A stretch of DNA of 21,955 nt from positions 1 to 21,955 of IMG/VR virus record IMGVR_UViG_3300017971_000811. One strand, 5' to 3'. The position numbers were made by a program, and so were the translations under genes. The notes under the pieces were generated by a model, which was given only the letters and a program-made list of their open reading frames with translations, searched no databases and was not told the DNA's origin. Shown piece by piece: positions 5,259 through 20,265 of the stretch (position 1 is the stretch's first letter; each line of letters starts with the position of its first letter). The stretch is from a virus.

Positions 5259-5747
5259 TTAAGCCACTGCTTCAAAGGGTTCCGTTTCAAGTTCATCAGA
5301 GCCATATGTGGCTCTAATTTCTTCCATAGTGAATATACGCTTACTCCGTTTGCGATAACCGGCGGGTCTCCAGTACCATTGATGTTTTTTAGGAGCATAT
5401 CGTAGCCCAGCTTCTTTTAAATAGTCTTTAACTGGGCGCGTGTTTCCGCTCACCCATAGCCATGTTCCGCAAATTTCAAGACTAATATCCCTAAAATGTT
5501 TGATCTTGTTGATTATCCCTTGCAATACTTCGTCAATTGGGATATCATCATTGACTTGTTGATAATGCCACTTGTGGATATGTTTCTTTAAAAATTCATA
5601 AGCGGCGTTTATCAGCTTCATCAATTCCAATCCATCGGGATTCACGTCAGGATGATATCGCTTGCAAGCTATCCTGTATGCCCTTTTTAGGTCATCGTCC
5701 GTGTTTCCCGATGGTCTCAAAATGTTTAAAGCCTTTTGTAATGTCAT
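5259..5747 (-). CDS. DnaJ-like protein (J domain plus phage-type C-terminal domain)
   Basis: 162 residues from ATG 5747 (GGGAGGT seven bases upstream; a TTG at 5768 is rejected). Residues about 3-55 form a J domain: helix II DDLKRAYRIACKRY, the HPD motif (H32-P33-D34) in YHPDVNPDG, then helix III LMKLINAAYEFLKK. HPD contacts Hsp70 (DnaK) and stimulates its ATPase, so this protein can recruit host DnaK. The G/F and zinc-finger parts of true DnaJ are absent. The C-terminal part, with ICGTWLWVSGNTRPVKDYLK and KHQWYWRPAGY, is a domain I associate with J proteins on mobile elements. A role in replication or virion assembly is inferred. Confidence 0.85.
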   Translation of the reverse strand: MTLQKALNILRPSGNTDDDLKRAYRIACKRYHPDVNPDGLELMKLINAAYEFLKKHIHKWHYQQVNDDIPIDEVLQGIINKIKHFRDISLEICGTWLWVSGNTRPVKDYLKEAGLRYAPKKHQWYWRPAGYRKRSKRIFTMEEIRATYGSDELETEPFEAVA

Positions 5748-5773
5748 ATTGCACCTCCCTTTGAACAAAATTT

Positions 5774-7171: not shown

Positions 7172-7711
7172 ATGCCAAATAAAAAGCAAGATAAACCACT
7201 AACCTACAAACAACAACTGTTCGTCGACGCCTACGCCGGCAATGCAGCTGAAGCAGCAAGAATAGCCGGGTATAAACAACCGCAAGTCATAGGTTCCCGA
7301 TTGTTCCGGAAAGTTGAAATCAAAGAAGCCATCCGAAAACGAGATAACGGAAACGGGAAAAGAAGGAATAAAACGCTTGAAAAGATTATGACGCAAGAAG
7401 AGATACGTGCAGCATACTCAGACATTGCCCGTGACCCTGACCATAAAGACCGGCTAAAGGCCCTAGACTCCCTCGCTAGGTGTTATGCTATGTTTAGCGA
7501 TAATGTCAATATATCCGGGCAGATAGAGCACCTATCAGATACCCAGCTTACCCGCAAACTAACAGCTGCACTTATCATGCTGGGAGTCAAACAACACACA
7601 ATCGATCAACACATCGCCGGGCTCTTGACGCAGCCGCAAGACGTAAAACCACTAGATGTAGATGGCACGGTAGAGAGTGAGCCATCCAATGGGCACACAA
7701 GTGATAAGTAG
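7172..7711 (+). CDS. terS: Terminase small subunit
   Basis: 179 residues. Residues 9-55, with LTYKQQLFVDAYAGNAAEAA, IAGY and the GSRLFRKVEIKEAIRKR segment, match the N-terminal DNA-binding HTH of the Terminase_2 family (LTxKQxxFVxxYxxxxNAxxAAxxAGY...GSxLLxxxxI). TerS recognises the packaging site and delivers phage DNA to the large subunit. The central segment (MTQEEIRAAYSDIARDPDHK, LKALDSLARCYAMF) fits the oligomerisation helices. The start ATG follows the upstream stop with no gap, suggesting coupling. The large subunit gene is not adjacent: 1.5 kb containing two other genes intervenes. Confidence 0.88.
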   Translation: MPNKKQDKPLTYKQQLFVDAYAGNAAEAARIAGYKQPQVIGSRLFRKVEIKEAIRKRDNGNGKRRNKTLEKIMTQEEIRAAYSDIARDPDHKDRLKALDSLARCYAMFSDNVNISGQIEHLSDTQLTRKLTAALIMLGVKQHTIDQHIAGLLTQPQDVKPLDVDGTVESEPSNGHTSDK

Positions 7712-7967
7712 CTGTTTTCATGGACATTCTAACAAGTGTTTAGTTTACATAATGGTTTTATATCAGACATCAGACATTATCTCATTGTGCCCGGGTTTCC
7801 TGGACCATCGATGGGGGGGGGAGGGGGCGCTTTTTCCTGCGTTTTGCGATGGGACTCCGACTTACCCTTTAATGTTGCAAAAGTTTTCGATAGCAGGTAA
7901 TATATGAAGCCCTTAAATGAGCGAAACTGTATTGTTATTAATCGTTTAGGTATGGAGGTATGGAAAG
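7712..7967 (+). other. Intergenic region with a G9 tract
   Basis: I support no gene here. It includes a tandem CAGACAT repeat, and a G-rich block of nine Gs (7813-7821), one A and five Gs, followed by CGCTTTTT. A candidate promoter lies at 7875-7903. A 26-codon frame (7904-7984) ends inside the next gene in another frame; it may be a leader peptide but its SD is poor. Confidence 0.5.
7875..7903 (+). promoter_or_regulatory. Candidate promoter upstream of the sqdB-like gene
   Basis: TTGCAA (7875-7880) and TAATAT (7898-7903) are separated by 17 bases; each matches 4 of 6 consensus positions. It is the best sigma70-like pair in the gap and would drive the 7968 ORF, the sqdB homologue and possibly the head genes. 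Confidence 0.35.
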
Positions 7968-8108
7968 ATGGAATGGAAGTTTGAAAATGGTGTGACCATA
8001 GGATTTATTGATGATGGAAGTGAAGAATTTATAGGATGCCAAAATCCCATATTTTTTGAAGAACTTCCGAAGGAATTGGTAGTGGGTGAAGGCCAAGAAG
8101 GTAGATAG
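7968..8108 (+). CDS. Small acidic protein, unknown function
   Basis: 46 residues from ATG 7968; GGAGGT lies eight bases upstream. The sequence begins MEWKFENGVTIGFIDDGSEE and ends in EELPKELVVGEGQEGR: a short beta-rich acidic peptide. It ends 11 bases before the sqdB-like gene and shares its style of codons, so both may have arrived together. An alternative is that it continues the overlapping 7904 frame by frameshift, since that frame ends in a similar phrase (MEVWKDGMEV). Confidence 0.5.
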   Translation: MEWKFENGVTIGFIDDGSEEFIGCQNPIFFEELPKELVVGEGQEGR

Positions 8109-8119
8109 GAGATAGAGAC

Positions 8120-9208
8120 ATGAAGGTATTAATTTTAGGTAGTTCTGGTTATTTAGGTTATCCGACGTGTTGTTATTTGAGTGAGCGTGGGCATGAGATA
8201 TGCGGTATGGATGACATGAGCAAGGAGAAGTTTGAGGGGTTACTGGGAGGATTTCCGTTATTTAGGCCTGAGAGCAATTATTTTACCTATGATTATTTTA
8301 GTACGACTGATTTTTGGAATTTATCCAGGTTATTTGAGAGTTATCGGCCGGAGGTGATCATTCATTATGCTGAGATGCCGAGTGCTCCATTTTCGATGAA
8401 GAATCAATTGCATAGTTATCAGACGATGGAGAGCAATGTATTGGGGACTTTGAATGTTTTATGGGCTATGAGGTTGAACTGTCCTGAAGCTCATTTGATC
8501 AAGTTGGGGACGATGGGGGAATATGGAGCGCCGGACATTGATATAGAGGAGGGGTATTTAAATATCGAGCATAATGGTAGGAAAGACAGGATATTATATC
8601 CGAAGAGTGGGGGTTCATTTTATCATCTTTCCAAGATACATGATTCTCATAACATTGAATTTGCGTGCCGGGTGTGGGGTTTGAGGTCTACTGATTTAAA
8701 CCAGGGGATTGTGTATGGTGTAAAGACAGATGAGGCGGATCGGCTTAGTTTTCATTATGATGAGATATTTGGTACTGTTTTGAACAGGTTTTGTACGCAG
8801 GTGGTTGCCGGTGTTCCTTTGACTGTGTATGGTGGTGGTGGTCAGAAGAAGTCATTTTTAAACGTAAGGGATACGATGAGATGCGTTGAACTGGCTATGT
8901 TAAATCCTCCTGAGAGTGGAGAATATCGTGTATTCAACCAATTTACTCAAGTATTTAGTTTAAAAGACTTGGCTGAATTGGTTGTAAGTGTATATCCTAA
9001 AGGTGGAGATGTTCAATTTTTGAACAACCCCAGAGGTGATGAGAGAGAGGACGGGTTTTATAATCCCAAGAATGATAAATTTAAGAATTTGGGTTTGGAG
9101 CCTCATTTGCTGTCTGATGTGTTACTTGAAGAAATGTTTGAAATGATTGAACGATATCGGAAAAATATTGACGAGAGCGTTATTTTGCCGAAAATAGACT
9201 GGAATTAG
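8120..9208 (+). CDS. sqdB: UDP-sulfoquinovose synthase homologue (SQD1/SqdB type)
   Basis: 362 residues, extended short-chain dehydrogenase fold. The NAD-binding GxxGxxG is G7-G10-G13 (ILGSSGYLG). The catalytic set is T131 in LGTMGEYG and Y168-x3-K172 in FYHLSK. Several long segments follow the SQD1 family closely, not just generic epimerases: IDIEEGY, SFYHLSKIHDSHNI, TDLNQGIVYGVKTDE, FGTVLNRFCTQ, PLTVYGGGGQ, VFNQFTQVFS. SQD1 enzymes convert UDP-glucose and sulfite to UDP-sulfoquinovose, the head-group donor for sulfolipid or sulfonated glycans. Length is close to the bacterial enzymes. Codons favour TTA/TTG and GAG more than the terminase gene beside it, a sign of separate origin. A related sugar substrate remains possible. 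Confidence 0.88.
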   Translation: MKVLILGSSGYLGYPTCCYLSERGHEICGMDDMSKEKFEGLLGGFPLFRPESNYFTYDYFSTTDFWNLSRLFESYRPEVIIHYAEMPSAPFSMKNQLHSYQTMESNVLGTLNVLWAMRLNCPEAHLIKLGTMGEYGAPDIDIEEGYLNIEHNGRKDRILYPKSGGSFYHLSKIHDSHNIEFACRVWGLRSTDLNQGIVYGVKTDEADRLSFHYDEIFGTVLNRFCTQVVAGVPLTVYGGGGQKKSFLNVRDTMRCVELAMLNPPESGEYRVFNQFTQVFSLKDLAELVVSVYPKGGDVQFLNNPRGDEREDGFYNPKNDKFKNLGLEPHLLSDVLLEEMFEMIERYRKNIDESVILPKIDWN

Positions 9209-9210
9209 AT

Positions 9211-10743
9211 GTGCCTACGCAGGAAGAATTAAGAGAAGCGGCTCAAACTGTTATCAAGATTTCGGAAGAGATCAAGAGGCGGCATAAGCACAGAAAATTA
9301 TATTCTCTTTTTCCTGACAAGGGTCCGCTTCGTCGGGAGCTTTACAAGCCCCATATTTACTTTTTGAAAGCCGGTAAGGATTATTTTGAGCGCTGTATTA
9401 TTGCCGCAAACAGAGTTGGTAAGAGCATTTTGGGAGGATATGAGATTGCTCTTCATGCCACGGGCCTTTATCCTTACTGGTGGGAGGGAAAAAGATTTAA
9501 TCATCCTACCAGGCTTTGGGCTTGTGGTGCTTCATTTCAGACTGTTAGGGATATTGGTCAAGAAATTCTTTTAGGTCCTGTTGGATCTTGGGGAACAGGT
9601 CTTATCCCGGGTGATCTTATCAAGGATATCCGGCGCAGGGCAGGCAGTATCCCTAATTCTGTTGAGCAAATCACGGTTAAACATAAAACCGGTGGTCTTA
9701 GTGTTATCGGATTTAAAGCCTATGAACAAAAGCGTCAATCTTTTGAAGGCACGTCCATGCACGGTATATGGCTTGATGAAGAATGCCCGATGGATATTTA
9801 CGGTGAATGTATTATCCGGGCCATGACGGTTAATGAAGATGAGATGGGAACTGTTTTTTTGACATTTACGCCTCTAATGGGTTTAACAGAGGTTGTGCTG
9901 AAATTTGAACCGAACGGCGCCATGCCCGAAGGCAGGGCACCTTTTATAGATGATCCAAATATTATTCATGGCGTTAAGGAGTCCAAGTTTGTCATCAATG
10001 CCACATGGGATGATGCCCCCCATTTGACAGAAGAACAGAAAAAGAATATCATAGAGGGCACCCCGCTTTATCTTAGGGATGCAAGAGCTAAAGGAATTCC
10101 ACAACTTGGCGCTGGAGCCATCTATCCTATATTAGAGGATGATATAACGATAGAGGATTTCGAGATTCCGCCATGGTACAGACGGTGCTTTGGTCTTGAT
10201 ACGGGCTGGAAGGCAACAGCGGCATTGTGGGGGGCGATAGATCCAGAATCAGACGTTCTTTATTTGTACAGTTGTTATAAGCAAGGTCATGCTGAACCAG
10301 AAACCCATGTCAGGGCCGTGAAAAGCAGGGGCTATTGGATTCCCGGTGTCGGTGATTATGCCGGAACCAACCAACTAGATGGAAAGAAAGTCATTGAAGA
10401 ATATATGGCTCTTGGTTTGAACATCAGTTTTCCAGATAAGCATGTTGAGGCCGGGATTTTTGCGGTCTGGGAAAGAATGGTATCTGGAAGGCTGAAAATT
10501 TTTAAATCAGCTTGTATTCCCTTGATAAATGAGATCAGGATTTACAGACGAAACGACAAAGGCAAGGTTGCTGTTGAACAGGACGACCATTTGTGCGATT
10601 GCATGAGATATATCGTCATGACGGGCATCTTTATCGCAACCATAGCACCATTTGAAGACGAAGAATACTTTATTGGTCAACAATCAATGCGTTCATCCAT
10701 AGGGCGTATGCCGGGGCCGGGGTACTTTGGTGGAATATATTGA
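9211..10743 (+). CDS. terL: Terminase large subunit
   Basis: 510 residues, starting at GTG 9211, two bases after the sqdB stop (an ATG at 9209 is out of frame). Walker A is ANRVGKS (66-72), Walker B with catalytic glutamate is IWLDEE (186-191), and the coupling motif is LTFTP (217-221). The nuclease half opens with FGLDTGW (D330), has GDYAG (about 381-385) and ends with DDHLCD (D458, D459), the acidic triad of the RNase H-like nuclease. The protein pumps DNA into the prohead using ATP and cuts it. The SD is weak, so translation may depend on read-on from sqdB, tying their expression together. It overlaps the portal start. Confidence 0.93.
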   Translation: MPTQEELREAAQTVIKISEEIKRRHKHRKLYSLFPDKGPLRRELYKPHIYFLKAGKDYFERCIIAANRVGKSILGGYEIALHATGLYPYWWEGKRFNHPTRLWACGASFQTVRDIGQEILLGPVGSWGTGLIPGDLIKDIRRRAGSIPNSVEQITVKHKTGGLSVIGFKAYEQKRQSFEGTSMHGIWLDEECPMDIYGECIIRAMTVNEDEMGTVFLTFTPLMGLTEVVLKFEPNGAMPEGRAPFIDDPNIIHGVKESKFVINATWDDAPHLTEEQKKNIIEGTPLYLRDARAKGIPQLGAGAIYPILEDDITIEDFEIPPWYRRCFGLDTGWKATAALWGAIDPESDVLYLYSCYKQGHAEPETHVRAVKSRGYWIPGVGDYAGTNQLDGKKVIEEYMALGLNISFPDKHVEAGIFAVWERMVSGRLKIFKSACIPLINEIRIYRRNDKGKVAVEQDDHLCDCMRYIVMTGIFIATIAPFEDEEYFIGQQSMRSSIGRMPGPGYFGGIY

Positions 10744-12640
10744 AAATTTACAATATTTTGTGGACAGCCGGAATGTCGCTGAATTACTTGATTCCGATAT
10801 CTTGCAACGTATCGGAGAAAAAGTCTACGAAGAGTATGAAATAGACGAGGATAGCCGGACAGAATGGCTCGAAAAGAACGAAAAAGCCATGAAACTTGCT
10901 ACTCAAGCGGTTGAAGCGAAAAATGAGCCGTTTGAGGGCGCTGCAAATATAAAATTTCCTACTCTAAGCATGGCTGCTGTGCAGTTCGCAGCCAGGGCCT
11001 ATGGTCAGATCATAAATGAGGGGAATATTGTCAAGACCAAAGTAATAGGGAGTGATCCTCAAGGCTTTAAAGCCAGTCGTGGACAACGAATATCCACTCA
11101 TATGAATTACCAGTTGTCAGAAGAACTGCTCGAATGGGAAGATGAAACCGATTCTTTATTGGTGGCTCTGCCAATCGAAGGTTGTGAATTCAAAAAAACG
11201 TATTTTAATAGCGCGTTAAAAAGACCTGTCTCTGAATGGATACGCCCTGAAAACCTCGTAGTTCATTACAAGGCCAAATCACTTGAGCTTGCCCCAAGAT
11301 ATACTCACATCATAAATCTCTACCCTAACGATATCATAACAAGAATCAGGTCCGGTATGTTTTTGGATCTTGAGGAAATCCAGCGACCGGCCAACGTGGA
11401 CCCGGGGGATGATTACGACACCAGAGACGATGATTCCCCCCATAAATTTCTTGAGCAATACAGGTTTTGGGATCTTGATAACGACGGATACAAGGAACCC
11501 TATATTGTCACCATCCACAAGGATTCTAAAAAGGTCGTCAGGATAGTTGCCCGGTACGATATCGAACAGATTAAAACAAACAATAAAAATCAGATCGTTC
11601 ATGTCGAACCGATTCATTATATAACCAAGTATCTTTTCATGCCCTCCCCGGATGGGGGCTTCTACGGTTTGGGTTTCGGGTCTCTGCTGTCACCTATCAA
11701 TGTCAGCATTAACATGACCTTGAATCAAATCCATGACGCCGGGACGTTAGCCAATACGCAAGGCGGTTTTATAGGGAAAAGCACGTCGTTTCAACAAAAC
11801 CGTAGTGGCGGGGACGTGCGATTCAAAATGGGCGAGTTTAAACAGATAAATTATTCCGGCGACGACATCAAAAAAGCGATTATGCCCCTACCATTCAAGC
11901 CGCCGGACATGATATTGTTTCAAGTTTTGGGACTACTTATCAATGCCGGTGAAAAACTAGGGAATGTAGTAGACCCGCTTGTTGGAGAATCCCCAGGAGC
12001 TAATGTCCCCGCAACCACTACGCTTGCTCTCATAGAACAGGGATTGAAAGTATTTGGTTCAGTATCAAAGCGCATATATCGCTCATTAAAGTCGGAACTC
12101 AAAAAGTTGTATCGCCTAAACAGCATGTTTTTGGATGATCAACACTACTTTACCGTTTTGGATGACCAAAAAGCAGTTGCGAGGGGGGACTATAAAGCAA
12201 ATGATTGTGACGTAGTGCCTGTAGCCGACCCTGCACAGGTATCAAATACGCAAAAATTATTGACGGCGCAAGCATTATTCGGGTTAATGGGTATGGGATT
12301 GAACGATGATGAGATAAAACGTCGTTACCTTGAGGCTTTGAACGTGCCGGACATTGAAAAATTGTTCCCAGAAGAAGGCACAAAACCACCTATCGACCCA
12401 AAAACAATGATGGAACTACAAAAACTGGAATTGGAACGTGATAAATTCGAGCTTGAATTATTCAAAGCGCAATTCGACATTTTAAAAATTCAAGCAGACG
12501 CTATCAAGTCTATCGCCCAAGCGGAAGCCGCAGAAATAGGACCCCAGGTGGAACAATACAAAGCGCAACTCAGTTTAATTATGGAAGGCATGAAAACGAG
12601 AGCGCAGGAGAAACAGCGTGGAACAACTTCAAAAACATGA
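10730..12640 (+). CDS. Portal protein
   Basis: About 636 residues. It starts at GTG 10730 (or TTG 10727), overlapping the terL end. Features typical of P22-like portals are: an N-terminal helix-rich region with FEGAANIKFPTLS, a clip/stem region with the acidic FWDLDNDGYKEPYIVTIHKD, the FYGLGFGSLLSPINVSINM segment with TLNQIHDAGTLANTQGG, and a long C-terminal coiled coil (LQKLELERDKFELELFKAQF onward). Twelve copies form the ring at the capsid vertex through which DNA enters. Order after terL is standard. No truncation is seen. Confidence 0.88.
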   Translation: MEYIENLQYFVDSRNVAELLDSDILQRIGEKVYEEYEIDEDSRTEWLEKNEKAMKLATQAVEAKNEPFEGAANIKFPTLSMAAVQFAARAYGQIINEGNIVKTKVIGSDPQGFKASRGQRISTHMNYQLSEELLEWEDETDSLLVALPIEGCEFKKTYFNSALKRPVSEWIRPENLVVHYKAKSLELAPRYTHIINLYPNDIITRIRSGMFLDLEEIQRPANVDPGDDYDTRDDDSPHKFLEQYRFWDLDNDGYKEPYIVTIHKDSKKVVRIVARYDIEQIKTNNKNQIVHVEPIHYITKYLFMPSPDGGFYGLGFGSLLSPINVSINMTLNQIHDAGTLANTQGGFIGKSTSFQQNRSGGDVRFKMGEFKQINYSGDDIKKAIMPLPFKPPDMILFQVLGLLINAGEKLGNVVDPLVGESPGANVPATTTLALIEQGLKVFGSVSKRIYRSLKSELKKLYRLNSMFLDDQHYFTVLDDQKAVARGDYKANDCDVVPVADPAQVSNTQKLLTAQALFGLMGMGLNDDEIKRRYLEALNVPDIEKLFPEEGTKPPIDPKTMMELQKLELERDKFELELFKAQFDILKIQADAIKSIAQAEAAEIGPQVEQYKAQLSLIMEGMKTRAQEKQRGTTSKT

Positions 12641-12857: not shown

Positions 12858-12895
12858 AGGCCATGCGGGGCCGCATACTCGTATGGTCTTTTTTT
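12858..12895 (+). terminator. Intrinsic terminator between portal and GroES genes
   Basis: AGGCCATGCG (12858-12867) pairs with CGTATGGTCT (12880-12889), allowing two G-U pairs, and is followed by a run of seven Ts (12889-12895). It likely reduces or ends the terminase-portal transcript before the co-chaperonin/scaffold/capsid set. No clear new promoter is visible right after it, so read-through must feed the head genes unless one is hidden. Confidence 0.75.
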
Positions 12896-12916
12896 ATTGC
12901 AAGGAGGCAGAAAAAC

Positions 12917-13291
12917 ATGGACAACAAATCAGGATTAAGACCGGTGGAAGATAAGGTGCTTTTAAAACCGGATAAGGTTAGTGACATGGCTGGAACGTAT
13001 CTCGTAAAACCTGAAATTGTCAGAGCCCAGGAACAAATGGCACAAGTGAGGGCTTATTTGATTGAGCATGGTCCAAATGCTTTTGAGGATTGGAGCGAAC
13101 CAAAACCGAAAGCGGGTGATAGGGTTTATGTTTGCAAGTATGCTGGCATTGACGGGATCCGGGGAGCAGATGGAGATACTTATAAGATATGCTCGGACAA
13201 GGATATTACGGCCATTATAGAAAGTGACCCCGAAGTTGATGAATTTTTGGGTACTAGAAAACCTTTAGGCAGGAGTTTAGCTGATGAGTGA
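12917..13291 (+). CDS. GroES-like co-chaperonin
   Basis: 124 residues from ATG 12917 (AAGGAGG nine bases upstream; the in-frame start at 12863 lies in the terminator). The start LRPVEDKVLLKPDKV and later AGDRVYVCKYAG and GDTYKICSDKDITAII fit the Cpn10 fold opening (LRPLxDRVLVK) and closing (xYxIxxExDILAII) strands. The middle has an insert (VKPEIVRAQEQMAQ) where the GroEL-binding mobile loop and roof would be. It probably caps host GroEL to fold the capsid protein, as T4 gp31 and similar proteins do. Its place directly before scaffold and capsid supports this. The stop overlaps the scaffold start. Confidence 0.85.
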   Translation: MDNKSGLRPVEDKVLLKPDKVSDMAGTYLVKPEIVRAQEQMAQVRAYLIEHGPNAFEDWSEPKPKAGDRVYVCKYAGIDGIRGADGDTYKICSDKDITAIIESDPEVDEFLGTRKPLGRSLADE

Positions 13292-15259: not shown

Positions 15260-16165
15260 ATGGCTATAACAACAGGTAATCACCCCAAGGCACTTTGGCC
15301 CGGTGTAAAAGCATGGTGGGGTCGTGCATACGATGAACATGCTGTTGAGTACACCGATTTGTTTGATATGGACACATCCTCTCAAGCCTATGAAGAGGAT
15401 GTCGGCCTCACAGGTTTTGGTCTTGCCAGTGTTAAACCGCAAGGTATGTCCATCGAATACGACACTGAATCACAGGGTTATACTTCAAGGTATTATCATG
15501 TGACGTATGCCTTGGGTTATATCGTAACGATGGAAGAGCTCATGGATAACCTTTATGCTGTGGTTTCCAAAAGACGGGCAAGGGCGAACGCCTTTAGTAT
15601 GCGTCAGACCAAGGAAAATGTGGCCGCGAATATCATAAATCGTGCTTTCAATGCAAGTTATACGCACGGTGACGGCCAAGTTTTGATTTGTAGCACACAT
15701 CCTACCAAGTCGGGCAACCAGAGTAACTTACTCACTACGGCTGCTGATTTGAGTGAAGCGTCTATTGAAGACCTCATCATTCAAATGATGGGCGCGGTTA
15801 ATGAGAGGAACCTGAAAATCAACCTGATGCCTAAATCACTTCATGTCGCGCGTCAGGAATGGTTCGAAGCTAACCGTATCCTGAAAAGCACTCTTCAAGT
15901 ACACACCGGAGACAATACAGTTAATGTTTTGAAAATGACCAATGCCCTCCCAGGCGGCATCAAGGTGAATCATTATTTCACCGATTCAGATGCTTGGTTC
16001 ATCAAGAGTAATTGCCCTGATGGTCTCAAGGGCTATCAAAGAATGGCAATTCAGTTCGACCAAGACAATGATTTTGACACAAAAAATGCAAAGGCAGCCT
16101 CAATTGAAAGATATAAATTTGGAGTCACGGATTGGCGGTCTATCTGGGGAACCCCCGGAGCATAG
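15260..16165 (+). CDS. Major capsid protein
   Basis: 301 residues. It has features of the HK97-fold coat of the Mu gpT-like group: an N-terminal arm (GVKAWWGRAYDEHAVEYTDL), a long spine-helix region with TMEELMDNLYAVVSKRRARA, then VAANIINRAFNASYTHGDGQ, ICSTHPTKSGNQSNL and a C-terminal FGVTDWRSIWGTPGA. Size, position after scaffold and the GGGGGTGA SD (AAGGGGGTG) fit a highly made coat. The 3' end (A6 run at 16081-16086) overlaps a different-frame gene. Confidence 0.87.
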   Translation: MAITTGNHPKALWPGVKAWWGRAYDEHAVEYTDLFDMDTSSQAYEEDVGLTGFGLASVKPQGMSIEYDTESQGYTSRYYHVTYALGYIVTMEELMDNLYAVVSKRRARANAFSMRQTKENVAANIINRAFNASYTHGDGQVLICSTHPTKSGNQSNLLTTAADLSEASIEDLIIQMMGAVNERNLKINLMPKSLHVARQEWFEANRILKSTLQVHTGDNTVNVLKMTNALPGGIKVNHYFTDSDAWFIKSNCPDGLKGYQRMAIQFDQDNDFDTKNAKAASIERYKFGVTDWRSIWGTPGA

Positions 16166-16829
16166 ACCGGATCATTTCGGGCGAGATATCCCCGAATCTG
16201 TTGCAATAGTGGCGATGGGGATATCCCGATTTGATTACGTCACCATTGCCTGTAACAAGGGTAGTGGGGCTGGAATAGCCCAGGAGACATGGGCAATCAA
16301 TAAGATGGGCGGCATTATTTTCAATGATATTTGTTTTCGCATGGATGATTTGGTTGAAAACAGACAATATATGAAACAACCCATGGTAGATTGGTTGAAA
16401 GCCCATCCATTGATTGTGACGTCTACGGCATATCCTGACGAGTTTCCAGGGAGTGTGGAGTATCCGCTTGAGAAAGTGATAAATTGTATAGGCGTACCCT
16501 ATTTTAACACGACACCGGCTTATGCTCTGGCATATGCAATATATTTGGGGATTCCTCATATTCATATCTATGGGTGTGATTATACCTACCCGGATAGAGG
16601 ACCCGCAGAAGAAGGCCGAGGATGTTTTGAGTTTATGATGGGTATTGCCTTTGAGCGAAAACTTATGATCCATATATCCCAACACACGTCCTTGTTGGAC
16701 ACCTGTTTTCCACTTGAAAGCAGGCTTTACGGTTACAACTGTGAGTTTGACATGCAGGGCGTGAACGGGAAATGGAAAGTTAATCGTAGAGAAAAGAAAG
16801 AAAATGGCGAGAAAAAAACCACCGATTGA
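16119..16829 (+). CDS. Rossmann-like protein of MptE/DUF115 type, paralogue 1
   Basis: About 236 residues from TTG 16119; the N-terminus is uncertain, because no ATG/GTG with a good SD precedes the first strand, and the frame stays open back to 15990 inside the capsid gene. The motif set is SVAIVAMGIS (nucleotide-binding-type turn), ETWAINKMGGI, CFRMDDL, IVTSTAYPDEFPGSVEYPLE, TTPAYALAYAIYLGI and HIYGCDYTYPDRG. The last block resembles the GxD/Y motif of MptE-like and Maf-type (DUF115) domains, some of which are sugar transferases. This is a fold-level guess. It overlaps the cysteine-cluster gene by 26 bases and has a homologue at 19291. Confidence 0.75.
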   Translation: MESRIGGLSGEPPEHRPDHFGRDIPESVAIVAMGISRFDYVTIACNKGSGAGIAQETWAINKMGGIIFNDICFRMDDLVENRQYMKQPMVDWLKAHPLIVTSTAYPDEFPGSVEYPLEKVINCIGVPYFNTTPAYALAYAIYLGIPHIHIYGCDYTYPDRGPAEEGRGCFEFMMGIAFERKLMIHISQHTSLLDTCFPLESRLYGYNCEFDMQGVNGKWKVNRREKKENGEKKTTD

Positions 16830-17379
16830 CGAAAGATACATGGATCAGAGCTGGTTTATCGAAAGCCATACCATATGCAGTGAACTTCGTGAAGCCTATG
16901 CTGTCATAGACAATGACTACGCCAAAAAAAAGTTGCGTATCGCCGTCACGATGGCAAAGGCAATGGCTAATAAACTAAGTCGATTGAGAGAAGGAAAAGA
17001 CGTGACCTGGAAATGCGAGAAGTGCGGCAATTGTTGCAAGGGTTTTGCCCTTGATGTTAAACCGTATGCGTTTGTGCTGGAAGACATAACACTGATGGAA
17101 ATCCACGATGTCCCTATTAAAGAAGGGTTTTCTCTGTTTATTCCGCATAGATGCAAACACCTCACGAAAGATAACCTGTGCGATATCTGGGACAATCGCC
17201 CACAGGTTTGCAGGAATTACTTTTGTGAGGGTAAAAAAGACGGTCAACATCATACGATAAAAACCGCACTTAGCGACGATTATGAAAAACCTGATAATTA
17301 CAAAACATTGTCTTATGATGATTCCCATGCTCAAGGAGTGTCCTCCGATGAGGATGTGGGAAAGGAGATTGAAAAATGA
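16804..17379 (+). CDS. YkgJ-type cysteine-cluster protein, paralogue 1
   Basis: 191 residues. The metal-binding set of the CxxCxxCC family is C71, C74, C77, C78 (KCEKCGNCCKG), then C117 (HRCKHL), C126 (LCDIWDNRPQVC), C136 and C141. Family members are called zinc- or iron-chelating; the lysine methylase FliB of flagellin shares this cysteine pattern. A 70-residue helical N-terminal extension with YAKKKLRIAVTMAKAM and an acidic C-terminal tail are extra compared with the second copy at 18139. The gene overlaps its upstream and downstream neighbours (ATGA at 17376), so it belongs to the same transcript. Substrate unknown. Confidence 0.82.
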   Translation: MARKKPPIDERYMDQSWFIESHTICSELREAYAVIDNDYAKKKLRIAVTMAKAMANKLSRLREGKDVTWKCEKCGNCCKGFALDVKPYAFVLEDITLMEIHDVPIKEGFSLFIPHRCKHLTKDNLCDIWDNRPQVCRNYFCEGKKDGQHHTIKTALSDDYEKPDNYKTLSYDDSHAQGVSSDEDVGKEIEK

Positions 17380-18164
17380 CTACTCGACATACAATTTCTC
17401 ATGCAGATGAACTTTATGCAGGACAGGCTTACAATGATGGGGATTCCCCTGATGGTCGTAGAGGAATCAAAATGCCTCACATATACGTGAGGGAATACGG
17501 GGCTATTTTAGCGAAAGATCATGACGGTTTGTTCGCAAGCGTATTGGCAACCAAAACCGGAAACCTTGTACTGTTATGTACCGGCGCATGGGCTTCCATT
17601 GTTTCAGGTGCCTGCCCGACAGGTACTATTACAAACAGTGCATCTTCCGGCACTATTGTATTGGATACCCCCAGAAACATTTGCTGGAAGGATGACAAGG
17701 ATTCGTCCGGTTTAAAGCTGCTTGTCAAGGGCAAGGATGAATATGATAACGTGATGTGGGAAAAGATTTCAGGGCCAAGTAACACCACGGTTCATGGCGT
17801 GAAAGCATTCAAGAAAATCAATTCCATGACCATCACGGGCAATTCGGCGTCTCTTGTTTGTATCGGCTATTCAAACAGGATTGGCTTGCCGTACCACCTT
17901 TCAAGCAAAGGGCGTTTTCTTGGTCTTGTGATTGATGGCATAAATCTGTGTACGCAATCAGCGACACATGCTTATACATTGACTACTGGACTTGCCCTTG
18001 CTACAGATGCAACAAGCACGGTTCGGAATCCCGATGTTCGCGGGTTGATTCATTTGTCTCAGGCGAACCGTATACCGGACGGGTCAAAGACGTTTACGGC
18101 TATTATGCTGGTTGATCACAGCACAAGAGACAAGGCTTATGGAAACGTCCAGGCAACCGCCTAG
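17376..18164 (+). CDS. Probable virion structural protein
   Basis: 262 residues, beta-rich and glycine/serine/threonine-rich, with few charged clusters. Segments such as TGNLVLLCTGAWASIVSGAC and SMTITGNSASLVCIGYSNRIG suggest a capsid-surface or fibre-like protein with a repeated strand pattern. No enzyme motif. It lies between the two Rossmann/cysteine-cluster modules; it might be their substrate, since such modifying proteins are often encoded beside their target (inference). ATGA links it to the gene before. Confidence 0.6.
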   Translation: MTTRHTISHADELYAGQAYNDGDSPDGRRGIKMPHIYVREYGAILAKDHDGLFASVLATKTGNLVLLCTGAWASIVSGACPTGTITNSASSGTIVLDTPRNICWKDDKDSSGLKLLVKGKDEYDNVMWEKISGPSNTTVHGVKAFKKINSMTITGNSASLVCIGYSNRIGLPYHLSSKGRFLGLVIDGINLCTQSATHAYTLTTGLALATDATSTVRNPDVRGLIHLSQANRIPDGSKTFTAIMLVDHSTRDKAYGNVQATA

Positions 18165-18456
18165 TGATGACGGTTGGGAGTGTAAACGGTGCGGCAATTG
18201 CTGCCGCACCATCGTTCTTCCCGTAACGGCTGTTAAAGATAATATTATTAGCGGATTGTTTGAAGCACATGGGCTTCCGCTGAATCAGACATTTAAGATA
18301 ACCTTGTTTCATGAATGCCGACACCTTGTTACATATAAAGATGGGAAAACATACTGTGACATTTATGAAAACAGACCAAATATTTGTAGAACTTTTACCT
18401 GTAAAGGCAAAGGGTCTGATTATCATTTAGAAATAGAGAGAATGCAATATGCCTGA
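18139..18456 (+). CDS. YkgJ-type cysteine-cluster protein, paralogue 2
   Basis: 105 residues, start ATG 18139, overlapping the previous gene by 26 bases; a TTG at 18112 is less likely. It is the minimal form of the family: C15, C18, C21, C22 (ECKRCGNCCR), C60 (HECRHLV), C73, C83 (CDIYENRPNIC) and C88. All eight cysteines line up with those of the 16804 protein, and CGNCC plus NRPxxCR are the same. The N-terminal extension of the first copy is absent. It couples to the methyltransferase-like gene by an eight-base overlap. Confidence 0.82.
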   Translation: METSRQPPSDDGWECKRCGNCCRTIVLPVTAVKDNIISGLFEAHGLPLNQTFKITLFHECRHLVTYKDGKTYCDIYENRPNICRTFTCKGKGSDYHLEIERMQYA

Positions 18457-19279
18457 ATCATTGCCTCATGACGACCCGAAATTTATAGAGATAAAAGAGA
18501 ATTTTGCCCGGGTCGTTAAGATAATAAGACAGGAATTCAAACAGGCAGATGAATGGTTGAGAGAACATCGTCTTCACCGGGGACAGATGAATGCAGTCGG
18601 CAGTAACGAGTTAAAAAAAGCCGATGTATGGGATTTTATAACAAAAGTCGCCCATTATCATAAGTCAACCGGCTGTAATATCGGACTAATGTATGTTTTA
18701 TGGAATTACATCGAGAAAAATACGCCACAATATTTTATCGAGTGCGGCACAGGAGTATCGACTCATTTGATTGCGGAGGCCATGAACAGGTTTTGCTACA
18801 AAAAATATAATGGAGACATTAAACTTGTTTCCATGGAAGGCAGTCCGAAATGGTATCAGGAAGCCCTCAGGCATCCTATTGCATACGATTTCGTTGATAT
18901 CGTCTTATCCCCAATTCAAACAACGGAATACGGGATGTTCATATCCAGGGGCTATGAAAAAATACCGGAATACCCATATGACACCATGTTCGTTGATGGT
19001 CCATGCCAGGATACATACACAAATTTGGATGTGTTAAGAGTCGCGTCCAGGATTGATAACAATATTGTTGCCATAATAGATAGCAGAATTCAAACCATTC
19101 TTGCCCTTTTACTTTTATATGGACCTAGCTTTTTGTGCATGCTTGGTAAAACATTTTTGTTTGGCCCAATTAACAAAAACACCTTGAGTAAATATCATAA
19201 AGATTGTGATATCCATGAAGTTTTACAAGAAAGAATTGCGCAGTTAATATTGCCTCATATTTACAGTGGCATAGAGTGA
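18449..19279 (+). CDS. Class I SAM-dependent methyltransferase-like protein
   Basis: 276 residues. Motif I is FIECGTGVSTH (E98, G100, G102), a Rossmann SAM-binding loop. An acidic residue follows in LVSMEGSPKWY (E130), and a DTMFVDGPCQ segment (D178, D183) fits the post-I/motif II region of class I methyltransferases. The N-terminal 75 residues are helical and charged; the C-terminal part is hydrophobic (ILALLLLYGPSFLCML) and not typical of a core MTase. Substrate cannot be read from the sequence; neighbours suggest a sugar, lipid or protein of the virion or cell surface. An FkbM-like member is also possible. Confidence 0.7.
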   Translation: MPESLPHDDPKFIEIKENFARVVKIIRQEFKQADEWLREHRLHRGQMNAVGSNELKKADVWDFITKVAHYHKSTGCNIGLMYVLWNYIEKNTPQYFIECGTGVSTHLIAEAMNRFCYKKYNGDIKLVSMEGSPKWYQEALRHPIAYDFVDIVLSPIQTTEYGMFISRGYEKIPEYPYDTMFVDGPCQDTYTNLDVLRVASRIDNNIVAIIDSRIQTILALLLLYGPSFLCMLGKTFLFGPINKNTLSKYHKDCDIHEVLQERIAQLILPHIYSGIE

Positions 19280-19290
19280 GGAGAGTAAAT

Positions 19291-20265
19291 ATGGAGATAT
19301 TGAAAAGTAAGCCAGTGCCGGGAGTCGTTGCAATTGTTGCAATGGGGGATTCCCGTGTGCAGTATGAGTCCGAAGCCATAAAATCCGGTAGCCGTTATGG
19401 TGTAGCAGATGAGACATGGGTAATAAACAAGCTTGCAGAGGTATACCATCATGACATTCTGTTCAGGATGGACGATCTTAGACAAGTCAGGCTGTGCAAT
19501 GAGGGGATAATTCGGGATAAGGATAATATTTCCATACATGAACGATTTGACAAGGTTTTGCGGAATCATGACAAGCCGATTATTACGTCTACCGCTTACC
19601 CGGAGTATCCGACGTCCGTATCATACCCGCTTGAGGAAGTTATCAATTTTATGGGAACAAGTTATTTTCAAACCTGTCCTGCATATGCCGTGGCGTTTGC
19701 GGCATACATTGGCGTAAAGAGAATAAAGATGTATGGATGTGATTACACTTATCGGCAGGTTACTCATAGCACTGAAACAGGCCGGGCTAACCTGGAGCAT
19801 ATGCTGACAATGGCTATGAATAAAGGTGTCCAAGTAGAGGTTGCCAGGAAGTCCACGTTATTAAACACCAATTGTCCCCCTGACGAATATTTTTACGGGT
19901 ACGGTGGAAGAATTATTGAAGTTATGCCTGATCCTGAAAATAAAAACCGAATGAAGATTCGACATAGAGAAGATCTGGACACGATAGAAGAAATAAAAAC
20001 ACAAAAAATTGAGCTGAGAAAAATGTATGATTACATGGAGAAATTCAAAGATATCCTTGAGCCAGGAAATCCGCAACTTATAAAAACATACCGGGAGAAA
20101 ATTCTTAAAGCCGGTGAAATGCTTGTGGAAAAGCAAGACGCACTACAAGCACAGATTGACGAAAAATACGGAAACGGGGTTTATCAAAAACCACCTGAAC
20201 CAAAACAAAATCCTAAGTCGCCCCAAAAAGGGCGTTCTAAAAAAAGAACGACGAAAGGAAAATAA
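19291..20265 (+). CDS. Rossmann-like protein of MptE/DUF115 type, paralogue 2, with basic tail
   Basis: 324 residues from ATG 19291 (GAGGAGAG seven to eight bases upstream). Residues 10-210 align by eye with the 16119 protein: VVAIVAMGDSR, DETWVINKLAEV, FRMDDL, IITSTAYPEYPTSVSYPLEE, CPAYAVAFAAYIGV, IKMYGCDYTYRQ, STLLNTNCP and YGYGG. Identical key words make common descent certain. A C-terminal extension of about 100 residues has a coiled-coil region (TIEEIKTQKIELRKMYDYME, then KILKAGEMLVEKQDALQAQI) and ends in a proline/lysine-rich tail (KSPQKGRSKKRTTKGK). This tail may anchor it to other proteins or nucleic acid. Function unknown. Confidence 0.75.
   Translation: MEILKSKPVPGVVAIVAMGDSRVQYESEAIKSGSRYGVADETWVINKLAEVYHHDILFRMDDLRQVRLCNEGIIRDKDNISIHERFDKVLRNHDKPIITSTAYPEYPTSVSYPLEEVINFMGTSYFQTCPAYAVAFAAYIGVKRIKMYGCDYTYRQVTHSTETGRANLEHMLTMAMNKGVQVEVARKSTLLNTNCPPDEYFYGYGGRIIEVMPDPENKNRMKIRHREDLDTIEEIKTQKIELRKMYDYMEKFKDILEPGNPQLIKTYREKILKAGEMLVEKQDALQAQIDEKYGNGVYQKPPEPKQNPKSPQKGRSKKRTTKGK

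Follow-up and report, generated by a model that had tools for sequence, protein, structure and literature searches.

Results and Discussion

The window, by which we mean the whole stretch of DNA analysed (a 21,955-base IMG/VR virus record), carries an SQD1-like gene, sqd, a piece of phage cargo that lies immediately ahead of the gene for the large terminase subunit (terL), in a slot whose content varies. To judge from its active-site residues and the neighbours of its relatives, it is probably not the gene of a sulfolipid enzyme; on balance we favour a phage sugar-nucleotide enzyme, probably sulfite-using, that would feed nonulosonic-acid (NulO) or surface-glycan synthesis. The substrate, the use of sulfite, the product and the benefit to the phage are all points that we infer. 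The gene and its surroundings are as follows.

7172–7711, + strand: terminase small subunit (TerS); PF03592, E 5e-14, phrog_51
7712–9210, + strand: block most simply read as inserted between terS and terL; terS/terL overlap in named relatives, base skew
8107–8112, + strand: AGGAGA ribosome-binding site for sqd, 7 bases before the ATG; sequence
8120–9208, + strand: SQD1-like (R101P type) NAD-dependent UDP-sugar enzyme; profile, PDB, alignment, fold model
9211–10743, + strand: terminase large subunit (TerL); PF03237, E 2e-21, phrog_2, phrog_5653
10727–12640, + strand: portal protein, used to find relatives in the phage lineage; phrog_1216

Identity and fold of the SQD1-like protein

The window sequence at 8120–9208 (+) is an intact open reading frame of 362 amino acids with an ATG start. 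Every motif quoted for its product in the initial annotation (LGTMGEYG, SFYHLSKIHDSHNI, TDLNQGIVYGVKTDE and FGTVLNRFCTQ) was found in the protein, as were all three of the GxxGxxG, [ST]MG and YxxxK motifs. In a phmmer search against the PDB, residues 2–361 matched SQD1 (1qrr, 1i24) with an E-value of about 4e-111, the next-best family reaching 3e-11, and the NCBIfam profile UDPsulfquin_syn matched over its full length (358 bits, E 7e-107), compared with only 3e-11 for galE. The identity to Arabidopsis SQD1 is 45%, and the AlphaFold model (pLDDT 91) superposed on 1qrr with a TM-score of 0.97 in Foldseek, against approximately 0.7 for GalE-type enzymes. Because the full-length PDB match and the modelled fold far exceed those for epimerases, the initial annotation was correct in assigning the protein to the SQD1/SqdB family rather than to the generic epimerases; SQD1 is clearly ahead of the ordinary epimerases in both sequence and fold.

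Among annotated phage records we found only distant epimerases, 22–31% identical to the protein, and an exact-DNA scan of IMG/VR gave no further copies of the window gene. At least 94 IMG/VR contigs nevertheless encode an SQD1-like gene, and a putative UDP-sulfoquinovose (UDP-SQ) synthase was reported in 2020 in a virus of a different, Mu-like type from the Cariaco Basin (PMC7785012), so the earlier belief that no phage sqdB had been described does not hold.

The slot between terS and terL

The terS–sqd–terL order noted initially is borne out by the profile matches to both terminase subunits. The sqd stop codon (9206–9208) is followed two bases on by the TerL GTG start (9211), which has a weak ribosome site, again as first described. 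Contrary to the initial suggestion, TerL requires no translation of sqd in particular, since in the relatives terL follows neuC, neuA, a methyltransferase gene or the TerS gene. Positions 7712–8119 gave no confident gene assignment; after TerL come the portal, GroES-like and capsid genes. The GroES-like co-chaperonin gene (12863–13291; Cpn10, E 2e-6) recurs in the window's phage lineage, and in L118, L156, L102 and L110 (loci are given L numbers throughout) the TerL reading frames reach 800–850 amino acids rather than the usual ~500, possibly through inteins or fusions.

Since terS and terL overlap in EBPR podovirus 1 and in Chlorobiaceae phage CV-1-33, an insertion is the simplest explanation of the 1.5 kb between them here. 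The region 7.7–9.2 kb would thus be an inserted cassette: base skew over about 7.75–9.25 kb is unlike that elsewhere in the window, and sqd, with only 9% C at third codon positions, deviates in codon usage more than any other window gene tested (0.253, compared with at most 0.148 in equal-size random samples). What occupies this place varies among the relatives, which were compared chiefly from the terL side, the profile having recognised TerS in few of them. The closest phage relative, L003 (portal 71%, TerL 55% and SQD 53% identical), has sqd-neuB-neuC-terL, its neuC matching NeuC_NnaA above the cut-off, and L101 has neuB-sqd-neuC-neuA (cytidylyltransferase)-methyltransferase-terL. The end of a hydroxyacid dehydrogenase gene and neuA precede terL in L084, and in L056 a neuB-sqd-neuC-neuA cassette lies between the portal gene and groES. 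It is highly improbable that the arrangement in the window is an assembly artefact in which a bacterial sqd was wrongly joined to phage DNA: the deviant codon usage would fit such a join, and L082, a second contig of the window phage, does not span the junction, but sqd likewise lies upstream of terL in L003 and L101, related phages whose contigs come from other metagenomes.

Active-site residues and the Arg and Pro types

In Sulfolobus Agl3, replacement of His95, Arg101, Met145, Tyr182 or Lys186 by alanine gives an inactive enzyme, and the mutagenesis primer places Arg101 in the sequence AEQ[R]SAP (PMC4388408). The window protein reads AEM[P]SAP, with P87 at the Arg101 position, and this was the sole change among the catalytic residues examined; H82, E85, T131, M132, E134, Y135, Y168 and K172 are all kept. 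The codons concerned are given below.

8378–8380, + strand: codon for P87, at the SQD1/Agl3 Arg101 position; alignment, Agl3 R101A inactive (PMC4388408)
8510–8524, + strand: T131-M132-G133-E134-Y135, the [ST]MG dehydratase fingerprint, conserved; alignment
8621–8635, + strand: Y168-xxx-K172 catalytic motif, conserved; alignment
8747–8755, + strand: S210-F-H212, where SQD1 has R229/D231, a mark of the neu-linked subgroup; residue comparison

We compared 82 viral and 80 bacterial homologues. Proline occupies the Arg101 position in 79 of the 81 viral proteins in which the residue could be read, and in 39 of the 80 bacterial ones. Arginine was found in 41 homologues (39 bacterial, two viral) and in Arabidopsis SQD1; the plant, cyanobacterial and Agl3 enzymes all retain it, and the residue that is invariant in the plant/cyanobacterial clade is P87 in the window protein. 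In a tree of 142 proteins the Arg/Pro split needs a single change, the Arg side being one branch (96*) that contains Arabidopsis SQD1 and the cyanobacterial proteins, and the window protein falls outside it. Its nearest neighbours by path are L172 (Falkowbacteria; 58% identical), L003, L200 and L175, all four neu-linked, with the reservation that its own branch is long (1.01) and its exact position weakly supported.

These results bear on whether the protein is an ordinary UDP-sulfoquinovose synthase, using UDP-glucose and sulfite to supply sulfoquinovose for host glycans or sulfolipid. Its 45% identity and TM-score of 0.97 to Arabidopsis SQD1, and its otherwise intact catalytic residues, are what such an enzyme would show. 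We nevertheless consider this unlikely, because proline replaces the very arginine whose alanine mutant is inactive in Agl3, and because the Arg-type enzymes occupy one side of a single branch with the plant and cyanobacterial proteins. The NCBIfam equivalog cut-off (NF041015, 575 bits) is uninformative on type, because cyanobacterial SqdB-like proteins of the Arg type also score below it (474–488 bits), as do the Pro-type proteins (442–489 bits) and the window protein (358 bits); an argument against synthase function from this cut-off was accordingly dropped, and the inability of the profile to split the types leaves ordinary synthase function compatible with it. As curated, the cut-off would miss standard members of the family, such as the cyanobacterial proteins.

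Linkage of Pro-type genes to neu genes

The neighbourhoods of the two types differ. A neuA, neuB or neuC gene lies within 6 kb of 15 viral and 11 bacterial Pro-type genes whose residue could be read, 26 in all, and of none of the 41 Arg-type genes, which argues further against an ordinary synthase. At the six positions that separate the Arg-type from the neu-linked proteins, the window protein matches the neu-linked group in every case (K35/E39/P87/S210/H212/N248, or KEPSHN). Of the 32 proteins of the P-S-H type, 19 are neu-linked, compared with eight of the 131 others (Fisher p about 1e-10, kinship ignored), these counts coming from loci that are not phylogenetically independent. As the bacterial homologues were selected for their similarity to the window protein, the rates do not amount to a census. 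By its KEPSHN signature the window protein would belong to what we propose as a NulO-cluster SQD1-like subgroup. Its assignment to the SQD1 family stands, whereas the proposed product, UDP-sulfoquinovose for sulfolipid, is weakened by the Pro type and by the frequent occurrence of signature-sharing relatives in nonulosonic-acid clusters.

Linkage is not general among the viral genes: linked neuA/B/C are present in L003, L101 and L056, but for the majority of viral homologues, 64 of them Pro-type, the 6-kb neighbourhood contains no neu gene, many being located among genes of DNA metabolism, and neuA, neuB and neuC were not found among the assigned genes of the window, a 22-kb virus fragment. 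The other viral copies have neighbourhoods rich in glycosyltransferase and methyltransferase genes. The comparison also took in 140 viral loci that lack sqd. Those with neu genes are L084 and L105, together with L252 and L253, which are alternative cuts of the contigs of L105 and L101; all are of the window's phage lineage and have the neu genes directly before terL or its methyltransferase neighbour. A D-2-hydroxyacid dehydrogenase gene recurs next to or near neuA in the phage cassettes of L004, L005, L013, L021 and L084. A separate large phage group (L034, L029, L054, L073, L081 and their kin) has a Pro-type SQD1-like gene and no neu genes, the gene lying among those for dCMP deaminase, a ParB-methyltransferase, Sak4 and DNA polymerase.

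That sqd stands alone where L003 has sqd-neuB-neuC, and that the window protein has a long branch, could mean that the gene is a decaying, functionless remnant of a larger neu cassette. This seems improbable for a full-length protein with a confident fold, a good ribosome site and, apart from the subgroup-wide proline, all of its catalytic residues.

Sulfite-supply genes beside sqd

PAPS reductase is a source of sulfite. Genes for proteins with a PAPS-reductase domain by Pfam (cysH) adjoin sqd in L185 and lie immediately upstream of it in the phages L019 and L024/L025, and in L172 the order is neuC-methyltransferase-neuA-cysH-cysD-cysN-sqd-neuB, cysD and cysN being named by sequence likeness. 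The link is seen in two lineages of phages and at two or three loci in bacteria, and the viral loci that lack sqd yielded no cysH. The presence of cysH beside some Pro-type sqd genes points to continued use of sulfite by at least some enzymes of this type.

SQD1 and Agl3 behave as 5,6-dehydratases when sulfite is absent (PMC8987622), and the Pro-type enzymes might, in the manner of Pen or TunA, have become UDP-sugar 5,6-dehydratases that have lost the use of sulfite and supply a deoxy- or epimerised NulO pathway. The loss of Arg101 would agree with this, as would Pen itself, a UDP-GlcNAc 5,6-dehydratase of a pseudaminic-acid pathway (by the title of reference 117 in PMC8987622). We regard it as quite doubtful, given that in L172, L185, L019 and L024 the Pro-type sqd has genes for PAPS reductase or CysDN next to it, and given phage cassettes in which no aminotransferase typical of Pse/Leg was noted.

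Other genes of the window

The genes at 19276–20265 and 15990–16829 are paralogues from a phage family with the motif AYA.AYAI..GVK.I..YGCDYTYP and a weak MptE-like match, a relative of which sits between neuA and sqd in phage L004. A sialyltransferase or Maf-like role for 19276–20265 was not supported: the Pfam MptE-like match reaches only E 0.05, there is no PDB sequence match, the model is poor (pLDDT 69) and has no significant fold match, and the family is widespread in phages without sqd. A DUF5131 protein weakly similar to a radical-SAM family is encoded at 885–1673, and a minus-strand reading frame at 5259–5768 has a DnaJ domain (E 1.5e-9). The products of 16804–17379 and 18112–18456 match phrog_32498, the former having a CxxCxxCC metal-binding domain.

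Proposed function

Because viral and bacterial relatives adjoin sialic-acid-type sugar genes, a change in surface sugars is a more likely role for the enzyme than sulfolipid production. As a functional-looking SQD1-fold enzyme of a distinct Pro101 subfamily, the protein would take up NAD and a UDP-hexose, with oxidation at C4 followed by elimination of water at C5/C6, and sulfite would most likely be added at C6 to give a UDP-6-sulfo-sugar. In the closest relatives this sugar would enter the NulO pathway, in which NeuC would hydrolyse and epimerise the UDP-HexNAc, NeuB condense the product with PEP and NeuA activate it with CMP. NeuC-type enzymes act on UDP-HexNAc, and UDP-GlcNAc is for that reason a more plausible substrate than UDP-glucose. 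The partner genes of the window phage would lie outside the 22-kb fragment or in the host, and in the course of infection the product would change a glycan of the host surface or of the virion; of the effects proposed initially, one on the envelope or virion glycans is plausible.

A more specific possibility, which we put forward tentatively, is that Pro-type enzymes, both of phages and of bacteria such as the Patescibacteria and Rhodospirillales, join sulfite to UDP-GlcNAc as the first step towards sulfonated sialic-acid-like sugars, and that the cassette beside the packaging genes re-dresses host or virion glycans. The papers that we found contain no description of such sugars and, in a limited library where absence is not proof, nothing linking SQD1-like enzymes to NulO synthesis. 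If true, the proposal would add to the acidic surface sugars a new class whose pathway is carried by phages. More generally, viral and many bacterial annotations as 'UDP-sulfoquinovose synthase' may not mean sulfoquinovose production, and reading such genes as sulfolipid or sulfur-cycle genes could mislead.

Comparison with known systems

The window protein has in common with Arabidopsis SQD1 (1qrr, 1i24) and Sulfolobus Agl3 the fold (as judged against SQD1), the NAD site, TMGEY and YxxxK, but differs from them in Arg101 to Pro, R229 to S and D231 to H, and its Pro-type subfamily, which has NulO-linked members, is set apart from both. The Cariaco Basin virus likewise has a phage-borne gene annotated as a UDP-SQ synthase; its authors proposed N-glycosylation, and the available part of their report describes no neu linkage, subgroup or terS–terL position (PMC7785012). 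Acinetobacter phages encode NulO-modifying enzymes, namely EpaA/EpaB (PMC12053666) and O-acetyltransferases (PMC6586298), and these, as proposed here, are phage genes that alter host-surface nonulosonic acids. The Acinetobacter enzymes, however, modify existing host NulO, whereas the relatives described here carry neuA/B/C together with an SQD1-like enzyme.
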